Below the pieces are notes generated by a model, which saw only the letters and a program-made list of their open reading frames with translations, searched no databases and had not been told where the DNA came from. The position numbers were made by a program, and so were the translations under genes. Positions 3,760-56,521 of a stretch of 64,000 nucleotides of DNA are shown here, one piece after another; position 1 is the stretch's first letter; each line of letters starts with the position of its first letter. This DNA comes from Rhodospirillales bacterium (GTDB taxonomy: Bacteria > Pseudomonadota > Alphaproteobacteria > Rhodospirillales > Thalassospiraceae). The stretch spans positions 62,001 through 126,000 of the forward strand of contig JAHQVT010000010.1 in assembly GCA_019634165.1 (NCBI GenBank), in the 5' to 3' direction.

Positions 3760-3906
3760 GGTCTGATGATTGGGAATGTCACAGTTAAAACCCCCATTAC
3801 CAATGACGACCGCCAAGCAATTCAACCTGATTAGACAAGTTTCTTCTTGTATAAGCCGCAATCTCCGCGTTCAATATTCGCCCTTTTAAGTAGCGGTTAG
3901 CGCATC

Positions 3907-4530
3907 ATGAAGATTGCAATTGTCACACTTGACGGTTTTAACGAGCTTGACAGCTTTGTTGCCTTATCAATTTTGAACCGGGCCAAAGCCGATGGTGTGT
4001 GCGCAGAAATCACATCACCGTCCCAAACCGTGACATCCATGAACGGTGTGACCGTCACCGCCCAACAGCCTCTATCATTTGTTAAGGATGCTGATGCGGT
4101 GCTGTTTGGCAGCGGTATTCATACCCGCGATCATATTGATGATACCGCAATTACAAACGAACTGTCCCTTGATCCGGCGCGTCAATTGATTGGTGCACAA
4201 TGTTCAGGCGTGTTGTTTCTGTATCGTTTGGGACTTCTACCAGCAACCATCACGACCGACACCAAAACCCGGCCAATGCTGGCTCGGACCGATGCCGTTA
4301 TCGAAGACCGGCCTTTGGTGGCGCAGGGCAACATCATCACCAGCGGCGGCTGCCTGTCATCAAGCTATCTTGCCGGATGGTTTCTGGCCAAGGCCGTTGG
4401 ATTAGATAAGGCAATGTCGATCCTTGAAACCGTCGCACCGGTCGGACAAAAGTCACAGTTTGGCAAACAGGCCCGCGACATCATTGGCAAACAACTCGAT
4501 ATTCCGGCAAAACGCCCGCTTTACTGTTAA
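3907..4530 (+). CDS. DJ-1/PfpI family protein
   Basis: A 207-residue single-domain protein of the DJ-1/PfpI (class I glutamine amidotransferase-like) fold. It begins with the typical first strand, MKIAIVTLDGFNELDSF, and has a nucleophile-elbow Cys in IGAQCSGVLF around residue 99, followed by the SGGCLSSSYLAGWF helix. Members include chaperones, glyoxalases, amidases and transcription regulators; no HTH is present here. The exact activity cannot be read from the sequence. It appears monocistronic between the ETF-QO terminator and the TPR gene. The ribosome-binding site is weak. Confidence 0.75.
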   Translation: MKIAIVTLDGFNELDSFVALSILNRAKADGVCAEITSPSQTVTSMNGVTVTAQQPLSFVKDADAVLFGSGIHTRDHIDDTAITNELSLDPARQLIGAQCSGVLFLYRLGLLPATITTDTKTRPMLARTDAVIEDRPLVAQGNIITSGGCLSSSYLAGWFLAKAVGLDKAMSILETVAPVGQKSQFGKQARDIIGKQLDIPAKRPLYC

Positions 4531-4726
4531 GATCCCGATCGGTTTTAACCGCAATTTTCTGCGCTTTGGCAAATCTATAAAGCAATCGCTCTAACATGCT
4601 CTGCACTGCTTGTTGCAAATGCTTTGCCTTATATTTGCCGACTGAGTAGGCTAATCCCGAAATTCAATATGGTGTTGATCTATCTGTGACAACACCGAAC
4701 CCGAATTGCGGACGCAGGACAAGCCT

Positions 4727-6442
4727 TTGAAACGTCAACTGTTACAACTCATCATTCCGATGACGGCACTTGCTCTTTCGGCCTGTGGCACCATGCCCAA
4801 ACAGCCCGAATATGCAGAATTCCAATATCCGCAATCTGATGGCTTCTCGGGAAATTTCCTTGCCGGAAAAGCAGCGCAGATCGAAAGCCAGTCTGACTAT
4901 GCCGCACAATATTTGCTGCGCGCCTATCAAATTGATCCAGACAACACAGAACTCCGTCGCCGGGCGTTTCTTGCCCTGATCAGTGATGGTCGGATTTCCG
5001 ATGCCGCCGATATCGCAAAAGACCTTCAGGCGGAAAATCCCGAAGACCTATTTGCCGCCTTGACCATGATGGATGACGCCATACGCGACAACCGTTATCA
5101 GGATGCTATTGATATTGTAACGCAGCTCCCTCAGCGCGGGATCAATGCCCTGATCGCACCTTTGGCCAATGCATGGCTTTATGCCGGGTTGAACAAGCCG
5201 ACCCAAGCAATGGCCGCACTCAACGAAATTCAGGGGAACGGTTCGCTTAACCCGCTTTCGGAATATCATCGTGGTTTGATACTGGCGTATTTCGACGATT
5301 TTGACGGTGCCGAACGCGCACTTGCCAGTGCCTATGGCGACCCGGCAGATGCGCCATTGCGTGCAGCAGAGGCACTTGGTGCCGTCTATGAACGCAAAGG
5401 TCAGGTTCAAAAAGCAGCCTTGCTTTATGCCAGCTACATGGACCGCCACCCGCAATCCTTGGCCATGCCATTCCATCTTGCTCGTCTGGAACGCGGTGAG
5501 CCGCCAATGGCGACGATGTTAAGCCCGGCTGACGGTCTTGCAGAAGCCTATCTTGATATTGCGACCTTGCTTAGTCAGGAAAATGCAGTGGATCCATCCT
5601 TGTTGATGGCGCGCTATTCCCTTTCGTTGCGTCCCTATGACGACATCACCCGCTTGCTGGTTGGTGAGATCATGGAAATTCAGAAGCGTTTCAATACTGC
5701 AATTGATGTTTATGGTGCCATTCCTCATGCATCTCCTCATAGCTGGAACGCCAGACTGCGTATCGCGTCCAGCCTTGAGCAGATCGGGGATGCGGATAAA
5801 GCCATCAGCATCCTTGAAGACATGGTTGATGAGCGTAAAGACCGCCCGGATGCCTTGATCCAGCTTGGCGATATATTGCGCATTCAGGGAGAATACAGTG
5901 CTGCGGCCAGCGCCTATAACAAGGCGATTGAGCGACTAGGTGGTGACGCGCTGGTGGGCTGGCGGTTGCTGTATCGCCGTGGCATTTCCCATGAACGCGC
6001 TGGCAATTGGAAAAAGGCCGAATCTGACTTCCTGCTTGCCCTCGAAATTGAACCAGAACAGCCTTATGTCCTAAACTATCTTGGATATAGCTGGGTTGAT
6101 ATGGGAATGAATTTCGACCAAGCAGAAGACATGCTTAAGCGGGCTGTCGAATTGCAGCCAGATGATGGGTATATCGTCGATAGCCTTGGTTGGGTTTATT
6201 ACAAGTTAGGCCGGTTTGATGACGCCGTTGAACAGCTTGAAAAGGCCGTTGAACTGAAACCAGACGACCCGACAATCAATGATCATTTGGGCGACGCCTA
6301 TTGGCAGATTGGACGCTATCACGAAGCCAGATTCCAATGGCATCGCGCCCTTTCATTCAACCCAACCGAAGAACTGCGCGCCACAGTAGAAGCCAAAATC
6401 AAGGGCCTAGTACCAAGTGTCGCGCCAACCGTCGTGAACTGA
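4727..6442 (+). CDS. TPR-repeat outer-membrane-type lipoprotein
   Basis: A 571-residue protein from the TTG at 4727, preferred over the TTG at 4706 because AGGA lies 6-7 bases upstream and the product then starts with a compact lipoprotein signal ending in the lipobox LSAC. The mature protein should be lipidated and periplasmic. The body is a run of about 34-residue TPR units; the clearest are in the C-terminal third (LNYLGYSWVDMGMNFDQAE, SLGWVYYKLGRFDDAVEQL, HLGDAYWQIGRYHEARFQW). Such proteins are scaffolds for envelope complexes; no enzymatic domain is seen. It is followed after 21 bases by ispE, so the two are probably cotranscribed. Confidence 0.85.
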   Translation: MKRQLLQLIIPMTALALSACGTMPKQPEYAEFQYPQSDGFSGNFLAGKAAQIESQSDYAAQYLLRAYQIDPDNTELRRRAFLALISDGRISDAADIAKDLQAENPEDLFAALTMMDDAIRDNRYQDAIDIVTQLPQRGINALIAPLANAWLYAGLNKPTQAMAALNEIQGNGSLNPLSEYHRGLILAYFDDFDGAERALASAYGDPADAPLRAAEALGAVYERKGQVQKAALLYASYMDRHPQSLAMPFHLARLERGEPPMATMLSPADGLAEAYLDIATLLSQENAVDPSLLMARYSLSLRPYDDITRLLVGEIMEIQKRFNTAIDVYGAIPHASPHSWNARLRIASSLEQIGDADKAISILEDMVDERKDRPDALIQLGDILRIQGEYSAAASAYNKAIERLGGDALVGWRLLYRRGISHERAGNWKKAESDFLLALEIEPEQPYVLNYLGYSWVDMGMNFDQAEDMLKRAVELQPDDGYIVDSLGWVYYKLGRFDDAVEQLEKAVELKPDDPTINDHLGDAYWQIGRYHEARFQWHRALSFNPTEELRATVEAKIKGLVPSVAPTVVN

Positions 6443-49722: not shown

Positions 49723-50427
49723 TTAACCCCGCGGCGGAATATTGATGCCACGTTGAACAGCAGGACGTTCAAGTCCCTGTTCAAGCCATGCCGGAACCTT
49801 GACCAACTTATTGAATTCGACCAGATCACCGGCATCATAGAACCCGATCAGGTTACGCACCCAGCCAAGGCTTGCGATATCGGCAATGGTAAATTCATCC
49901 CCCATAATCCAATCACGATCCGTCAAGCGGGTTTCAAGCACACCCAGCAGACGCTTTGTTTCATTGACATACCGGTCGCGCGGACGCTTGTCTTCGATGT
50001 CTTTGCCTGCAAATTTATGAAAGAATCCAAGCTGCCCAAAAATAGGGCCAAGACCAGCCATCTGGAAATAAACCCACTGAATGGCTTCCATGCGCTTAGC
50101 TGGATGACTTGGCAGAAGCTTGCCGGTTTTCTCGGCCAGATATTGTAAAATTGCACCTGATTCAAACAAGGCAAGCGGTTCACCCCCCGGTCCATCCGGG
50201 TCCAGAATTGCCGGAATTTTGCCGTTTGGGTTCAGCGACAGGAACTCTCGCGTCCATGTTTCATCTTCGCCAATCTTGATACTATGCGCTTCATAGGGAA
50301 GTCCGATTTCCTCAAGCATGATGGAAACTTTGACCCCATTTGGGGTCGGAAAGGAGTAAAGCTGCAGGATGTCGGGATTTTTGGCGGGCCAACGTTTGGT
50401 AATGCCGAAATTGGAGAGATCAACCAT
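49723..50427 (-). CDS. Glutathione S-transferase-like protein (YfcG/YghU type)
   Basis: A 234-residue thioredoxin-fold protein with an N-terminal GST domain (LQLYSFPTPNGVKVSIMLEEIGLPYE, then LNPNGKIPAILDPDG and ALFESGAILQYLAEKTG) and a helical C-terminal domain (DEFTIADIASLGWVRN). The TPNG motif with Asn in place of the usual Ser/Tyr is characteristic of YfcG/YghU-type proteins, which act as glutathione-dependent disulfide reductases. It is 240 bases downstream of cynS on the same strand with a hairpin between, so it is probably a separate unit. Confidence 0.9.
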   Translation of the reverse strand: MVDLSNFGITKRWPAKNPDILQLYSFPTPNGVKVSIMLEEIGLPYEAHSIKIGEDETWTREFLSLNPNGKIPAILDPDGPGGEPLALFESGAILQYLAEKTGKLLPSHPAKRMEAIQWVYFQMAGLGPIFGQLGFFHKFAGKDIEDKRPRDRYVNETKRLLGVLETRLTDRDWIMGDEFTIADIASLGWVRNLIGFYDAGDLVEFNKLVKVPAWLEQGLERPAVQRGINIPPRG

Positions 50428-50665: not shown

Positions 50666-51106
50666 TTACCAAGCCCGATATTTCAGGAACTTACCATCAA
50701 GGGTGATCACGACGCGGTCACCTTTCGGGTCTTCCTTACGCTCGATATACATTTCGTAATCAATGGCACTCATGATGCCATCGCCGAATTTCTCGTGGAT
50801 GATTTCCTTGATGGTTTCGCCGTAAACACCGACAATTTCATACAAACGATAAACAGCCGGGTCGGTCGGAACGGCCTGATCCCAGATTTTCATCGGGCAT
50901 TCCTGAATGACTGCCGATGCCTCTGGCGGAAGGCCAAACAGGGCGACGAGCATATCAGCCTTGTCCTTTGGCGCGGAATTCATGCCAAAACAAACCGAGG
51001 TCGTCCAGACCGGCGACATGTCGATCTTGCTTGCAACTTCTTCCCAGCCAAGACCTTTGGCCTTTTTGGCTTTGATGATCATTTCTTTGACATCTGCTTT
51101 TTTCAC
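50666..51106 (-). CDS. cynS: Cyanate hydratase (cyanase)
   Basis: A 146-residue enzyme that converts cyanate plus bicarbonate to ammonia and CO2 (through carbamate). The catalytic region is YRLYEIVGVYGETIKEIIHE with the Arg and Glu, and the active-site Ser is in DGIMSAIDYEM. The N-terminal helix-turn-helix-like fold is also as in the family. It begins at GTG with AAGGAG 7 bases upstream. It lies 38 bases after the ABC ATPase gene and is the last gene of the cyn operon. Confidence 0.97.
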   Translation of the reverse strand: MKKADVKEMIIKAKKAKGLGWEEVASKIDMSPVWTTSVCFGMNSAPKDKADMLVALFGLPPEASAVIQECPMKIWDQAVPTDPAVYRLYEIVGVYGETIKEIIHEKFGDGIMSAIDYEMYIERKEDPKGDRVVITLDGKFLKYRAW

Positions 51107-51144: not shown

Positions 51145-52053
51145 TTATTTAGCCCGACTGACTGCAGGTTTACGGTCATCCTTTGGGTCCGAAAGCACCC
51201 CGTGCGCGCCGAACCGAACGATGGACGGCTCCGAAGTGCCGCCATCTTCCTGCTTGCCTGCAAGCGCCTTGGAGCGGGTAGCAAGGAATTCGACAAGGTG
51301 ATTTCGGATGTCGTAATAGTCGGAATGATGGATGATATTGGCCCGTTCGCGCGGACGCGGAATTTCGACTTGGACCGATTCTGCCACACGGGCATAAGGC
51401 CCGTTGGTCATCAGCAAAATACGGTCCGCCAGCAGGATTGCCTCATCCACATCATGGGTAATCATGAATACGGTCTGATCTGAGCCAGACCAGATACGGA
51501 TCAGTTCATCCTGAATGCTGCCACGGGTTAGCGCATCAAGCGCACCAAATGGCTCATCGAGCAGCAACAGTTCTGGCTGGATCGCGAATGCCCGCGCAAT
51601 TGAAACCCGCTGACGCATCCCACCCGACAATTGAGACGGTTTGCGAAGTTCGGCACCACCGGCCAAGCCAACCATCTCAAGATACTTCATCGAATGTTCG
51701 TGGACCTGTTTTTTACTCCAGGACTTGTGACGGGCCTGCACGGCAAAGGTCACGTTTTTCAAGGCCGACAGCCAAGGCAGCAGGGAATAGTTCTGAAACA
51801 CGATACCGCGATCAAGACTAGGCCCCGAGACCTCCTTGCCGTTCATAATCACCCCGCCTTCGCTTGGTTCATCAAGCCCGGCAAGAATGTTAAGGATCGT
51901 CGATTTACCACAGCCAGAATGACCGATAATGCAAACAAACTCGCCCTTCTCAATGCCAAGATTGACGTTTTCAAACACGGTGAGGGCGTCTTCACCCTTG
52001 GGTGCTTTAAACCGTTTGCTTAGGTTCTGTACGCTCAGGAATGGTGTCGACAT
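51145..52053 (-). CDS. cynD: ABC transporter ATPase for cyanate/nitrate-type uptake
   Basis: A 302-residue ATPase from the ATG at 52053 with AGGAG 7 bases upstream. Walker A is GHSGCGKST, the signature is [14 protein letters not shown], Walker B is [12 protein letters not shown], and the H-loop is in [10 protein letters not shown]. It belongs to the nitrate/sulfonate/taurine import class. The cyanate assignment is inferred from adjacency to cynS. The C-terminal ~50 residues are an extra charged tail ([11 protein letters not shown]). Confidence 0.88.
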
Positions 52054-52064
52054 TTCAGGTCTCC

Positions 52065-52895
52065 TTATTCCTGGTACTGCACAAGACGTGCGCAATAGGC
52101 AAAGGCGGTATCAAGCAGCATGCCGACAACACCAATCACGAGGATCGAGAACACCACACTGGTCAGATCAAGATTGTTCCATTCATTCCAGACGTAGTAG
52201 CCAATCCCCGTACCCCCCACGAGCATCTCGGCGGCAACAATAACCAACCAGGCAATGCCGATTGAAATTCGCATACCGGTCAAAATCGTCGGGGCCGCCG
52301 CGGGCAAAATCACAATCCATGCTGTTTTAAGCGCACCAAGTTCGTGTGTGCGCGCAACATTGACCCAGTCCTTGCGAACCCCGGCCACACCAAAGGCCGT
52401 ATTGATCAGCATTGGCCAGATCGAACAGATGAAAATGACAAAGATCGCCGATGCCTGGCTGTCCTGAATGACAAACAACGCAAGAGGCATCCAGGCCAAA
52501 GGTGATATCGGTCGAAGCACCTGAATGAAGGGATCAAGTGCCTTGTACATCAACGGCGACATCCCGATCAAAAATCCGACCGGAATGGCAATGGCTGCTG
52601 CAAGGAAATAACCGCTCAGAACCCGATACAACGAATAGCCAATCTGAATACCAATCCCCTTGTCATTGGGACCTGCATCATAGAAAGGATCGCTCAGTTC
52701 TTCCCACGCCTTGGCGAAGACGGCTGAGGGTGGTGGCACAGCCGCTTTTGGCTCGCCCCCGCCCATCAGCAATTCATATTCGGTAAGTTCGCCGGCAAGT
52801 TGCTGCTTCGGGCTGGCGGCCTCCCATAACCCAAGGAGAACCGCCAGCAACACGAGAGACAAAAGCAAAGCCCTGGCATTTAAAGATGCCAGCAT
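52065..52895 (-). CDS. cynB: ABC transporter permease for cyanate/nitrate-type uptake
   Basis: A 276-residue membrane protein with an N-terminal helix, a loop of about 55 residues and five or six further helices. The EAA-like loop is visible as [21 protein letters not shown]. Similar to NrtB/TauC permeases. It lies one base downstream of the binding-protein gene and 11 bases before the ATPase gene, so the operon is compact. Confidence 0.88.
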
Positions 52896-52896
52896 G

Positions 52897-54363
52897 TCAG
52901 CTTACCCCTTTACCAATGGCAAAGCTGTTCACATAGGCTTCAGGCTCATCAGGGTCGAAAGTCTTGCCCATGATGCTATAGGTTTTGTAGGTCTCGGTCG
53001 GGGCCTCATACCCAAGGTCTTTCATGACCTTGGCGCAATCGGCTGCGACATAGACTTCTTCGGCGATTTTCTTGTAATTGATGTCGCCTTCGATATAGCC
53101 CCAACGTTTCATCTGGGTCAAAATCCAGACCCCCATGGAATGCCATGGGAACGGATCGAAATCGATACGGTCCGGGACATTCAGAACTTCGCCCAAGCCA
53201 TCCGCATACCGCCCGGTCAGAACCTGTTCGATCACTGGAACCGGCTGGTTCAGATAGTTTGCCGGTGCAATTGCTGCCGAAATTTCTTTGCGATTTTCCG
53301 CTTTGGACGCGTATTGGGTCGCATCAACAATCGATTTCAAAAGTGCGCCATAGGTGTTTGGAAGTTCTTCCGAAAACGCCTTGGAGCAGGCAAATGCACA
53401 GCATGGATGACCTTCCCAGATATCCTTGGTCAGGGTGTGCAGGAAGCCGATTTTTTCCCAGACAGCGCGCTGATTGAACGGATCCGGTGACAGATAGCCA
53501 TCAAGGTTACCGGCACGCAAGTTTGCAACCATCTCGGGCGGCGGAACGACACGGATCTGAATGTCCTTGTCCGGATCCAGCCCATGTTCGGCAACGTAGT
53601 AGCGCAGCAAGAAGTTGTGCATCGAGTATTCGAATGGCACACCAAACTTGAAGCCTTTCCACTGCTTGGGATCACGTTTATCAAGGTGGTCGTTATGCAA
53701 CACAATGGCCTGACCATTGATGTTTTCAACCGCTGGCATCAGGAACGGTGTTGCCGAGGACCCAGCCCCCATTGAGATCGCCAATGGCATCGGGGTCAAC
53801 ATATGCGAGGCGTCATATTCATTGTTCAATGACTTGTCGCGCGCAACCGCCCAACCGGCTGTCTTGATCACATCAACATCAAGGCCGTATTTTTCATAAA
53901 AGCCCATCGGCTGAGCCATAATGATCGGTGTTGCGCAGGTAATCGGAACAAAACCAATATTAAGTTTGGATTTTTCCGGCTTGCCCAGATCATCAAGGAT
54001 CGCTGCTTTGACCTTATCAATCGGCAGAACAGATCCCAAGGCGGCCATCATGGTGGTACCGCCGACCATCTTGGCAAAAGAACGCCGCGAAATTTCATCA
54101 TGCCCAAAGACGGACCGGACAATCGCACTGTCGATTGCGCGATCAAGCATCTCTTCACTGCTGCCCGGCGTCGCATCCGCCAGATTGCCCATATCACTAT
54201 GTGCTGGCATTTTTGCCAGATCGTGTTCTACGCCAAGACCTTGGGCCGTATGTGATGCGTGTTTGTGATCCCCTTTTGACGCACAAACCTCACAGCCACA
54301 TGATTTACTGTGCCGAAGGTCAGCATCCCCACTGAATGGATCGCCCAGACTTTTGACTGACAT
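52897..54363 (-). CDS. cynA: NrtA/CynA-like substrate-binding protein with Tat signal
   Basis: A 488-residue protein from the ATG at 54363 with AGGGGG upstream. It has an unusual N-terminal extension of about 85 residues with a Cys-rich CGCEVC and His-rich GDHKHASHTAQG, followed by a twin-arginine signal (ISRRSFAKMVGGTT). The rest is a NrtA/CmpA/TauA-type binding protein (LNIGFVPITCATPIIMAQ, KFGVPFEYSMHN, RAGNLDGYLSPDPFNQRA). It should deliver cyanate or a related anion to CynBD. Substrate is inferred from cynS. It is the first gene of the operon, behind a sigma-54 promoter. Confidence 0.88.
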   Translation of the reverse strand: MSVKSLGDPFSGDADLRHSKSCGCEVCASKGDHKHASHTAQGLGVEHDLAKMPAHSDMGNLADATPGSSEEMLDRAIDSAIVRSVFGHDEISRRSFAKMVGGTTMMAALGSVLPIDKVKAAILDDLGKPEKSKLNIGFVPITCATPIIMAQPMGFYEKYGLDVDVIKTAGWAVARDKSLNNEYDASHMLTPMPLAISMGAGSSATPFLMPAVENINGQAIVLHNDHLDKRDPKQWKGFKFGVPFEYSMHNFLLRYYVAEHGLDPDKDIQIRVVPPPEMVANLRAGNLDGYLSPDPFNQRAVWEKIGFLHTLTKDIWEGHPCCAFACSKAFSEELPNTYGALLKSIVDATQYASKAENRKEISAAIAPANYLNQPVPVIEQVLTGRYADGLGEVLNVPDRIDFDPFPWHSMGVWILTQMKRWGYIEGDINYKKIAEEVYVAADCAKVMKDLGYEAPTETYKTYSIMGKTFDPDEPEAYVNSFAIGKGVS

Positions 54364-54426
54364 ATGATCACCCCCTGTTGTTACGCCACCCAGATCAGGC
54401 AGCATCAGATATTCACAAGGGACAAG

Positions 54427-54442
54427 AGCAACCAGCGTGCCA
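54427..54442 (-). promoter_or_regulatory. cynA: Sigma-54 (-24/-12) promoter of the cyn operon
   Basis: Read on the minus strand: TGGCAC-GCTGG-TTGCT. This matches the consensus TGGCAC-N5-TTGCW exactly. The -12 GC lies at 54428-54429, giving an expected start site near 54416, about 50 bases upstream of the cynA ATG. The adjacent activator gene and upstream palindromes support it. Confidence 0.88.
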
Positions 54443-54512
54443 ACTTGTTGCAGCGCAGCAGTTTCGTTGGAAACGCTAGACTCTGCATATGAAGGCTGGC
54501 ATCCTCAGGTGA

Positions 54513-54526
54513 TACGAAAAATCGTA
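54513..54526. promoter_or_regulatory. Palindromic operator, site 1 (TACGA-AAAA-TCGTA)
   Basis: A perfect TACGA/TCGTA inverted repeat with a 4-base A/T spacer. It is the site nearest the cyn promoter, roughly 100 bases upstream of the expected start. Probably an enhancer for the divergent sigma-54 activator. Confidence 0.8.
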
Positions 54527-54529
54527 ATT

Positions 54530-54543
54530 TACGAATTTTCGTA
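54530..54543. promoter_or_regulatory. Palindromic operator, site 2 (TACGA-ATTT-TCGTA)
   Basis: The same repeat as site 1; centre to centre 17 bp. Spacer is again A/T only. Confidence 0.8.
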
Positions 54544-54551
54544 ATTATTAA

Positions 54552-54565
54552 TACGATTTTTCGTA
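54552..54565. promoter_or_regulatory. Palindromic operator, site 3 (TACGA-TTTT-TCGTA)
   Basis: Same repeat; centre to centre 22 bp from site 2. It abuts the ribosome-binding site (AGGA) of the activator gene, so binding here could also repress the activator's own expression. Confidence 0.8.
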
Positions 54566-54574
54566 GGATCTTCA

Positions 54575-56521
54575 ATGGATAGCGATGTAATTCAGCCTAT
54601 TTCAATGCCTTTGGAGACACTTCATCTTCAGGCACTTTTGGCCCACACGCATCCAACATTATTGGTTCATCCAAAAACCGACAGCATCATTTTTGCCAAT
54701 GATGCTGCTGCCAAATTGCTGGGCCGCAGCATAGACACCCTGAAATCATCAAAGATGAGTGCCCTGCACAAAGGACAAGTTCCCAGCCTTGTCGTTTTTA
54801 GTCAGGCAGCCCTTTACCATGGCTTTGCATGGACGCGAGGGCTGGATTTGACCCGCCCGGATGGGTCTGAATTAAAGCTTGAACACGAAGCCCGTGCGAT
54901 CACACTCAATGATGAAGAATACCTGACCATCACCATTTCTGACCTTGATGCTCGCCATCGTCGCGATGTCGATTCAGAAGCAGATGATTACCTCCGTGAA
55001 GGCATTTCCGAATGGCGACGCGCCGAACGTTTTTTCCGCGAAATTGAACGTGAAAACCAGCTCATTCTAGGGGCGGCAGGCGAAGGTATTTACGGCGTAA
55101 ACAGCGACGGCATCACAACATTCGTCAACCCGGCAGCTGAACGCATGCTGGGCTGGACAGCAGATGGGCTTGTTGGCAGGGAAATCCATTCGATCATTCA
55201 CCATTCCCATGTCGACGGCGAACCCTATCACGCTGAACAATGCCCGATTTACAATGCGTTTCGCGAAGGCATTGTCCGACGTGTCGACGACGAAGTTTTC
55301 TGGCGGAGTGACGGAAAACCGATCCGGGTCGAATATACCTCCACCCCTATTCGCGACCATGGGCTTGTCATCGGGGCCGTGATTGTTTTTCGCGATATCA
55401 CCGAACGTAAAATTGCCGAAGAAAAACTGCATGCCGCACTGGCCGAAGTTGATCGCCTTCGTGAACGGCTTGAACTTGAAAACGCCTATCTGCAGGAAGA
55501 AATTCTTTCGACCAACAATCATCACGAAATCATCGGTCAGTCGGATGCTATTCAGGGTGCCTTAAAACAAATTGATCTTGTTGCCCCAACCGATGCCAAC
55601 GTTCTGATCACGGGTGAATCCGGAACAGGGAAAGAACTGATTGCGCGCGCCATCCATCAGGCCAGCACCCGATCAGATCGCGTATTGGTTCGCGTGAACT
55701 GCGCGGCCATTCCCCATGAACTTTTTGAAAGCGAGTTTTTTGGCCATGTCCGCGGTGCCTTTACCGGTGCCATACGCGATCGCGTGGGCCGCTTTGAACT
55801 GGCGGATGGCGGGACATTGTTCCTTGATGAAGTCGGAGAAATCCCGCTAGAGCTTCAGGGCAAATTGCTTCGTGTTTTGCAGGACCAAAAATTTGAACGC
55901 ATTGGCGAAGAACGCACCCGAGAGGTCAATGTTCGCTTGGTCGCTGCAACCAACCGCGACCTTAAAGAAGAAGTTCGCCAAGGGCGTTTCCGCGAAGACC
56001 TTTATTTCCGCCTGAATGTCTTCCCGATTGAATGCCGCCCATTGCGCGACCGTACCGACGATATCCCACCATTGGCGACCCATTTCCTGCGCAACATCTC
56101 CCAGCGATTAAATATCAGCCAACCCACACTGACCAAAGGACAGGTCCGCACCTTGCAAAATTACGGCTGGCCGGGGAATGCCCGTGAACTTGAAAACGTT
56201 ATTGAGCGGGCCGCAATTCTTGCCCATGACGGCAAACTACATTTCGACTTACCTGAAACCGGTGGGCGCGATAGTCGAAGACTGATCGACACAGCTGTCG
56301 ATCAGACCGAACTCCCCGAAAAAGCCATCCTGACCCGCGATGAATTGCGCCAAAACGAATGCAACAACATCATCCACGCCCTGACAGAGACACGCGGAAA
56401 GATTTTTGGCCAAGGGGGTGCCGCCGCCCTTCTTGGTATTAAACCAACCACGCTGGCATCGCGTATCAAGACATTCAACATTGATCGCCGTGCGTTTCTT
56501 TTGGATAAAACGCCCGAATAA
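54575..56521 (+). CDS. Sigma-54-dependent transcriptional activator with two PAS domains
   Basis: A 648-residue bacterial enhancer-binding protein. Residues ~20-130 and ~155-280 are PAS-like domains ([40 protein letters not shown]), followed by a coiled coil. The AAA+ domain has Walker A GESGTGKE near residue 346, the sigma-54 contact loop GAFTGA near 398, and Walker [12 protein letters not shown]. The C-terminus is a Fis-type HTH ([18 protein letters not shown]). There is no receiver domain, so it is ligand- rather than kinase-controlled. Divergent orientation and the shared operators suggest it activates cynABDS. Confidence 0.92.

Follow-up and report, generated by a model that had tools for sequence, protein, structure and literature searches.

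A conserved array of three palindromes between cynF and the cyanate operon as a putative enhancer for a sigma-54 activator

Introduction

Three perfect 14-bp copies of the palindrome TACGA-N4-TCGTA lie within positions 54513-54565 of the window, the 64-kb stretch of DNA that was analysed as a whole. They are located between a cyanate operon and a divergent gene for a PAS-AAA+-Fis regulator, and the question that this locus raises is which protein would bind them and which of the two neighbours they would serve. Cyanate genes are also controlled by CynR (LysR type) and NtcA, regulator classes that are unrelated to the one encoded here. A closer precedent is CynF of Pseudomonas pseudoalcaligenes CECT5344 (P. 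oleovorans), described as a Fis-type sigma54-dependent protein that is encoded divergently from cynABDS and essential for cyn expression, with cynABDS being induced by cyanate and repressed by ammonium (PMC6627978). As in the window, a divergent regulator is combined with a sigma-54 promoter before the operon. The first-pass annotation of this DNA had taken a dedicated sigma-54 activator for a different regulatory design; since CynF is known from strain CECT5344 (PMC6627978), the design itself is not new. A recent survey lists cyanate lyase among the sigma-54 targets enriched in alpha- and gammaproteobacteria (2025; PMC12316311). Here, we describe the palindromes, their conservation in relatives of cynF, and the mechanism that they suggest.

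Results

The features of the locus are as follows (sites are given without strand).

50666..51106, minus strand: cynS, cyanase (163.4 bits to TIGR00673, whose cut-off is 113.3)
51145..52050, minus strand: cynD-like, ABC ATPase (best NCBIfam match, NtrCD subfamily)
52065..52895, minus strand: cynB-like, ABC permease (best NCBIfam match, nitrate permease NtrB)
52897..54363, minus strand: cynA-like, NMT1_2 substrate-binding protein of an ABC transporter (family match)
54427..54442, minus strand: putative -24/-12 (sigma-54) promoter of the cyn operon, TGGCACGCTGGTTGCT, score 19/19
54513..54526: putative CynF site 1, nearest to the promoter, TACGAAAAATCGTA, centred 91 bp from the -12 element
54530..54543: putative CynF site 2, TACGAATTTTCGTA, centre 17 bp from that of site 1
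54552..54565: putative CynF site 3, farthest from the promoter, TACGATTTTTCGTA, its centre 22 bp beyond that of site 2
54575..56521, plus strand: cynF, PAS-PAS-AAA+(GAFTGA)-Fis-type HTH enhancer-binding protein of 648 amino acids (family matches and sequence)

The transporter genes of the operon are of the nitrate/cyanate ABC type. Two starts were chosen by eye, namely the ATG at 54363 for the cynA-like gene, which follows a GGGGG stretch (the open reading frame list begins at 54405), and an internal ATG for the cynD-like gene. The genome holds a single cyanase gene and encodes RpoN (sigma-54). Adjoining cynS, the open reading frame at 49723-50427 looks glutathione S-transferase-like by eye.

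The regulator has Pfam matches to Sigma54_activat, PAS_9 (two stretches) and AAA_lid_14, its sequence contains GAFTGA, and its HTH_8 score of 20.4 bits falls just below the 22-bit cut-off. Its closest relatives among the matches listed are Thalassospira proteins (82-90% identical), and four Pseudomonas relatives, the CECT5344 protein not being among them, are 56% identical over residues 9/11-641.

All three palindromes are perfect, and their central four bases as well as the gaps between the sites (3 and 8 bases) consist of A and T only, just as the first-pass annotation had it. That annotation also placed them about 100-150 bp upstream of a -24/-12 promoter; the promoter is borne out, and the sites lie slightly nearer to it, with centres 91, 108 and 130 bp from the -12 element. 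At the other end of the array, the last base of site 3 also opens a Shine-Dalgarno-like AGGA (54565-54568), and 9 bases separate the site from the cynF start. When one mismatch is allowed, the window contains exactly these three palindromes, compared with a mean of 0.74 in shuffled sequences; three copies anywhere in 64 kb were reached by 5 of 100 shuffles, a test that scores counts and not clustering. The 4.28-Mb genome has five exact places, three of them at the cyn locus, and a reversed-pattern control has nine, so isolated copies are unremarkable and the cluster is the notable part. A search of the same genome for further CynF targets with up to three mismatches returned ten places, the cyn locus with none and the other nine with three each; because the reversed control gave 17 places, no second target stands out.

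To follow the array in relatives, we took the best 80 relatives of CynF among the matches listed (55-90% identity). A cynA- or cynS-like gene is divergent from and adjacent to cynF in 78 of these 80 loci; for the other two, L024 and L048, the contig begins at or within cynF, and the neighbour cannot be judged. The 78 gaps between cynF and the cyn genes comprised 66 non-redundant ones. In these, every gapped palindrome with 4-letter arms was counted without prior choice and set against the expectation from dinucleotide shuffles. The top dyad was ACGA-N4-TCGT, present in 60 of the 66 gaps where 0.15 were expected. It was followed by TCGT-N5-ACGA (45/66), an echo of neighbours 17 bp apart, and by an echo of the 21-bp spacing (32/66). 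The motif is thus present at orthologous cyn operons, where the first-pass annotation had proposed to look for it. As a search pattern outside Thalassospira the full 14-bp palindrome proved too strict, the common core being ACGA-N4-TCGT.

The geometry was determined in 96 gaps (the 78 gaps, the window and 17 further loci), of which 78 were non-redundant, by a search for triples in which each spacing could vary from 14 to 30 bp. A triple scoring at least 45, the threshold, was found in 72 of the 78 non-redundant gaps and in none of 390 shuffles (maximum, 41). Counted from the promoter side, the spacings were 17/21 in 38 gaps, 17/22 in 23 and 17/23 in 8, so that 69 of the 78 have a standard spacing of 17 and then 21-23 bp with the 17-bp pair towards the promoter; the Pseudomonas loci L084-L086 and L089 carry the 17/23 form, and one of them is from P. 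mendocina, in which the cyn genes share 97-98% identity with the cyn genes of strain CECT5344 (PMC6627978). Three passing gaps have other spacings (L020, 20/17; L070, 23/16; L082, 18/22). Six gaps scored below 45; four of them (L073, L077, L081 and L164) still choose 17/22 or 17/23 with diverged sites, and in the gaps of L027 and L090 the spacing-free search found no clear triple. Perfect cores occur in 57 of the 69 standard gaps at site 1, in 50 at site 2 and in 36 at site 3; since site 3 is the weakest, three sites are perhaps not always needed. Judged from these gaps, the array is a predicted polar three-site operator with nearly fixed spacing, conserved across alpha- and gammaproteobacteria.

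The array also has a preferred position relative to the operon promoter. Between array and operon, 65 of the 72 gaps contain a -24/-12 match of at least 17/19 directed towards the cyn genes; among shuffles the share is 0.3%, and on the wrong strand the count is 3/72. Distances from the -12 element to site 1 fall into groups at 66-68, 76-80, 87-92 and 99-103 bp, which are about one helical turn apart (steps of about 11 bp) and turn up again in distant genera. A lone distance of 59 bp belongs to L020, with its doubtful 20/17 triple. These distances were taken with a looser promoter cut of 15/19, which 16% of shuffles pass; at 17/19 the groups persist and the value of 59 disappears. In a test of helical phasing over 31 genus-level groups, the best period was 11.3 bp with R 0.73, a value reached by none of 5,000 uniform draws. 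The test used the smallest distance per genus, with genus labels taken from record titles; it kept the 59 bp of L020 and left out 17 panel loci as well as the extra loci of genera already present. The resulting figure is optimistic, since the genomes are related rather than independent and the uniform null is generous. On the cynF side, site 3 lies 6-177 bp (median, 66) from the start of the CynF match in the 69 standard gaps, the match start being used here and not the start codon.

We then asked whether the array goes with the enzyme or with the regulator. When 398 genomes of the phylum were scanned for the tandem motif ACGA-N4-TCGT-N5-ACGA-N4-TCGT, 11 genomes gave matches (reversed control, 1), each of the 11 places being located between cynF and the cyn genes. 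Similarly, paired full-length palindromes were found in 3 of 385 genomes of the class, the window's own included, always at cynF (reversed control, 1). Cyanase is present in 70 of the same 398 genomes. Leaving aside the window's own, we obtained 70 cyanase regions from 69 genomes, 17 of which encode a full-length CynF (at least 597 bits). The array is present in all 17 (scores, 44-56) and in none of the 53 others, where the score is at most 38 (shuffle maximum, 43). Several of the 70 regions end at contig ends, so an off-contig CynF could be missed in this count, and three of the cyanase matches are fragments.

Some of these regions hold neighbours of interest in their own right. In L141 and L151, both outside the class, CynF and the array accompany cynS together with a gene of the formate/nitrite transporter family (5984-6793 in L141 and 5892-6707 in L151), and no cynA match was seen there; this transporter is a candidate for an alternative route of cyanate uptake. 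The L172 region, which has no full-length CynF, encodes at 3833-4831 a sigma-54 activator-like protein that matches only CynF residues 312-637 (222 bits), and the array is absent from it.

Within the HTH, ten CynF proteins have Tyr for Ala at residue 628, and their sites drift to TAYGA-N4-TCRTA. In the Tyr-628 group, 11 of 30 sites have T at position 3 and 10 of 30 have A at position 12; the figures for the Ala-628 group are 2/150 and 1/150, a count that leaves out the 5 of 55 loci without standard spacing. This co-variation weakly suggests that the HTH helix reads the palindromes, and Tyr-628 with its drifted operators is a possible change of specificity. On the tree, two changes suffice to explain the distribution of Tyr and Ala at this residue, and nine of the ten Tyr proteins form one group, which is why the support is weak.

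The second PAS domain of CynF (PAS2, residues about 160-285) has relatives beside other cyanate operons. Among the cyanase regions from family f193, a PAS2-like protein is encoded near cynA in four of seven (L142, L156, L168 and L169), that is, in four of the five with a cynA match; L139 has cynA without such a match. The one example examined, L142 (1523-3402), is a PAS-HisKA_3 histidine kinase, with a LuxR-type response regulator encoded after it. Within the genomes of these four loci, which were picked for having the PAS2 match, the cyn-linked PAS is the best PAS2 match (119-138 bits, 48-51% identity), and the next reaches at most about 52 bits. Since the sensor domain stays with the operon while the output changes, this suggests that PAS2 perceives a cyanate-related signal.

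Discussion

The reading that we favour, with a probability of roughly 93%, is that the three palindromes form the enhancer of the cyn operon and are operator sites for dimers of the divergently encoded CynF. The sites, their conserved number, spacing and polarity, the way they are phased to the promoter and their occurrence together with cynF are seen directly in the sequences; that CynF itself is the binder is what these features point to. The first-pass annotation had proposed enhancer sites for the adjacent GAFTGA regulator, and conservation and co-occurrence with cynF lend this strong support, making that functional reading very probably right. Three CynF dimers would bind side by side, with centres 17 and then 22 bp apart, and would seed an AAA+ hexamer, three dimers making one hexamer. 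This hexamer would reach RNA polymerase-sigma54 at the -24/-12 promoter over about 90 bp and, in the presence of cyanate, open the promoter by ATP hydrolysis, with PAS domain 2 possibly relaying the cyanate-related signal.

A parallel for such an arrangement is E. coli NorR, whose divergent sigma-54 target operon, norVW, is likewise accompanied by three palindromic sites. We located in MG1655 three GT-N7-AC sites, which we take to be the NorR core, 21 and 24 bp apart, the closest of them at about 75 bp from the -12 element, which makes norVW a close analogue of the window's 17/22 array at 91 bp. The three enhancer sites of NorR are described as essential and as a scaffold for higher-order, ring-shaped oligomers (PMC2941729). 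By analogy, a NorR-like enhancer scaffold for three CynF dimers appears to be the best reading of the array, given that three operator-type sites are likewise predicted upstream of a sigma-54 promoter. NorR differs from CynF in its half-site, in the spacing on the promoter side (24 bp, against 17 bp for CynF), in its GAF rather than PAS sensor and in its target operon. CynF scores 375.6 bits against the NorR equivalog cut-off of 476 and has PAS matches and no GAF match. Its best NCBIfam score is to the formate hydrogenlyase activator FhlA (379 bits, with 49% identity over 373 residues of AAA+ and HTH), far below the equivalog cut-off of 830. A CynF-type site above 15/20 was not found in the 10-kb E. 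coli hyc-fhlA region, and a likeness to an FhlA site consensus was not borne out in that region (best match, 11/16); no kinship of half-sites is claimed.

Could the array serve another purpose? The alternative with most in its favour is negative autoregulation, in which bound CynF would block its own promoter and any effect on cyn would be secondary. In the window, the cynF ATG follows the end of site 3 by 9 bp, so that array-bound CynF would probably impede transcription of cynF, and an NCBI record lists NorR as a dual regulator. A simple scan of 54360-54640 found no sigma70-type promoter, a result that is neutral on this point. The distances argue the other way: site 3 lies anywhere from 6 to 177 bp from the CynF match, but distances to the -24/-12 promoter cluster tightly, and hence the constraint follows the cyn side. 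We consider it improbable that autoregulation is the chief role of the array, although feedback on cynF is plausible in this window and may coexist with activation of the operon. The same variable distance speaks against a role at the RNA level, as hairpins or as an attenuator in the leader of cynF; the palindromes are self-complementary and stand just ahead of the start codon in the window, but across the 69 standard gaps they are a median of 66 and up to 177 bp from the CynF match, and an RNA structure would have no need of a set spacing or of a phase relative to a promoter that lies on the opposite strand, which makes this reading very improbable.

It might also be asked whether NtrC or a similar nitrogen regulator occupies the sites, with CynF merely being encoded at the same locus. 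A general nitrogen input does exist, as ammonium is reported to repress CynF-dependent expression in P. pseudoalcaligenes (PMC6627978). Nevertheless, cyanase regions without full-length CynF lack the array in 53 of 53 cases, and a general regulator would have other targets, whereas the genome-wide matches are all at cynF; we regard this alternative as quite unlikely, somewhat less so than the RNA reading. Finally, clustering of AT-rich palindromes by chance, for which the stray single copies (two other exact places in the genome, and nine for the reversed control) might be cited, is practically discounted by conservation with fixed geometry in alpha- and gammaproteobacteria. A point against the favoured reading is that the array does not account for the ammonium repression reported for P. 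pseudoalcaligenes.

A more specific proposal, which we put forward tentatively and at somewhat less than even odds, is that the CynF scaffold is both polar and rigid. With 17 bp, then 21-23 bp, and a promoter set back by whole helical turns, it would be a stereospecific machine and not a distance-tolerant one, and PAS domain 2 would be a cyanate-operon sensor module that is also fitted to a histidine kinase (PAS-HisKA_3 with a LuxR-type response regulator) beside the cyn operons of another lineage. NtrC enhancers are described as tolerant of distance, with face-of-the-helix dependence in one two-site system (PMC7408454), and in light of the latter the grouped distances fit a stereospecific contact.

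In a literature search confined to open-licence papers, which is no proof of novelty, no CynF binding motif was found described. The main text on CECT5344 names sigma-54 and sigma-70 promoters and no palindrome or inverted repeat, and supplementary Figure S1 of that paper may mark sites (PMC6627978). Similarly, PMC11049912, PMC5333837, PMC8567248 and PMC10138600, which also name cynF, yielded no CynF operator motif or binding site, the one palindromic motif there concerning GntR proteins. The new part, which seems undescribed, is therefore the operator array with its strict spacing, common to many proteobacteria.

In summary, the array is apparently the missing operator for a known but little-studied regulator, and its pattern is strict enough to annotate CynF targets elsewhere. 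It provides dozens of natural enhancers for comparing how many activator sites there are, how they are spaced and how they are phased on the helix. Such a comparison is relevant to the idea, put forward for NorR, that dimers bound to DNA act as a template for the AAA+ hexamer. As for the cyanate sensor, the PAS domain common to CynF and the cyn-linked PAS proteins offers a candidate that can be tested.
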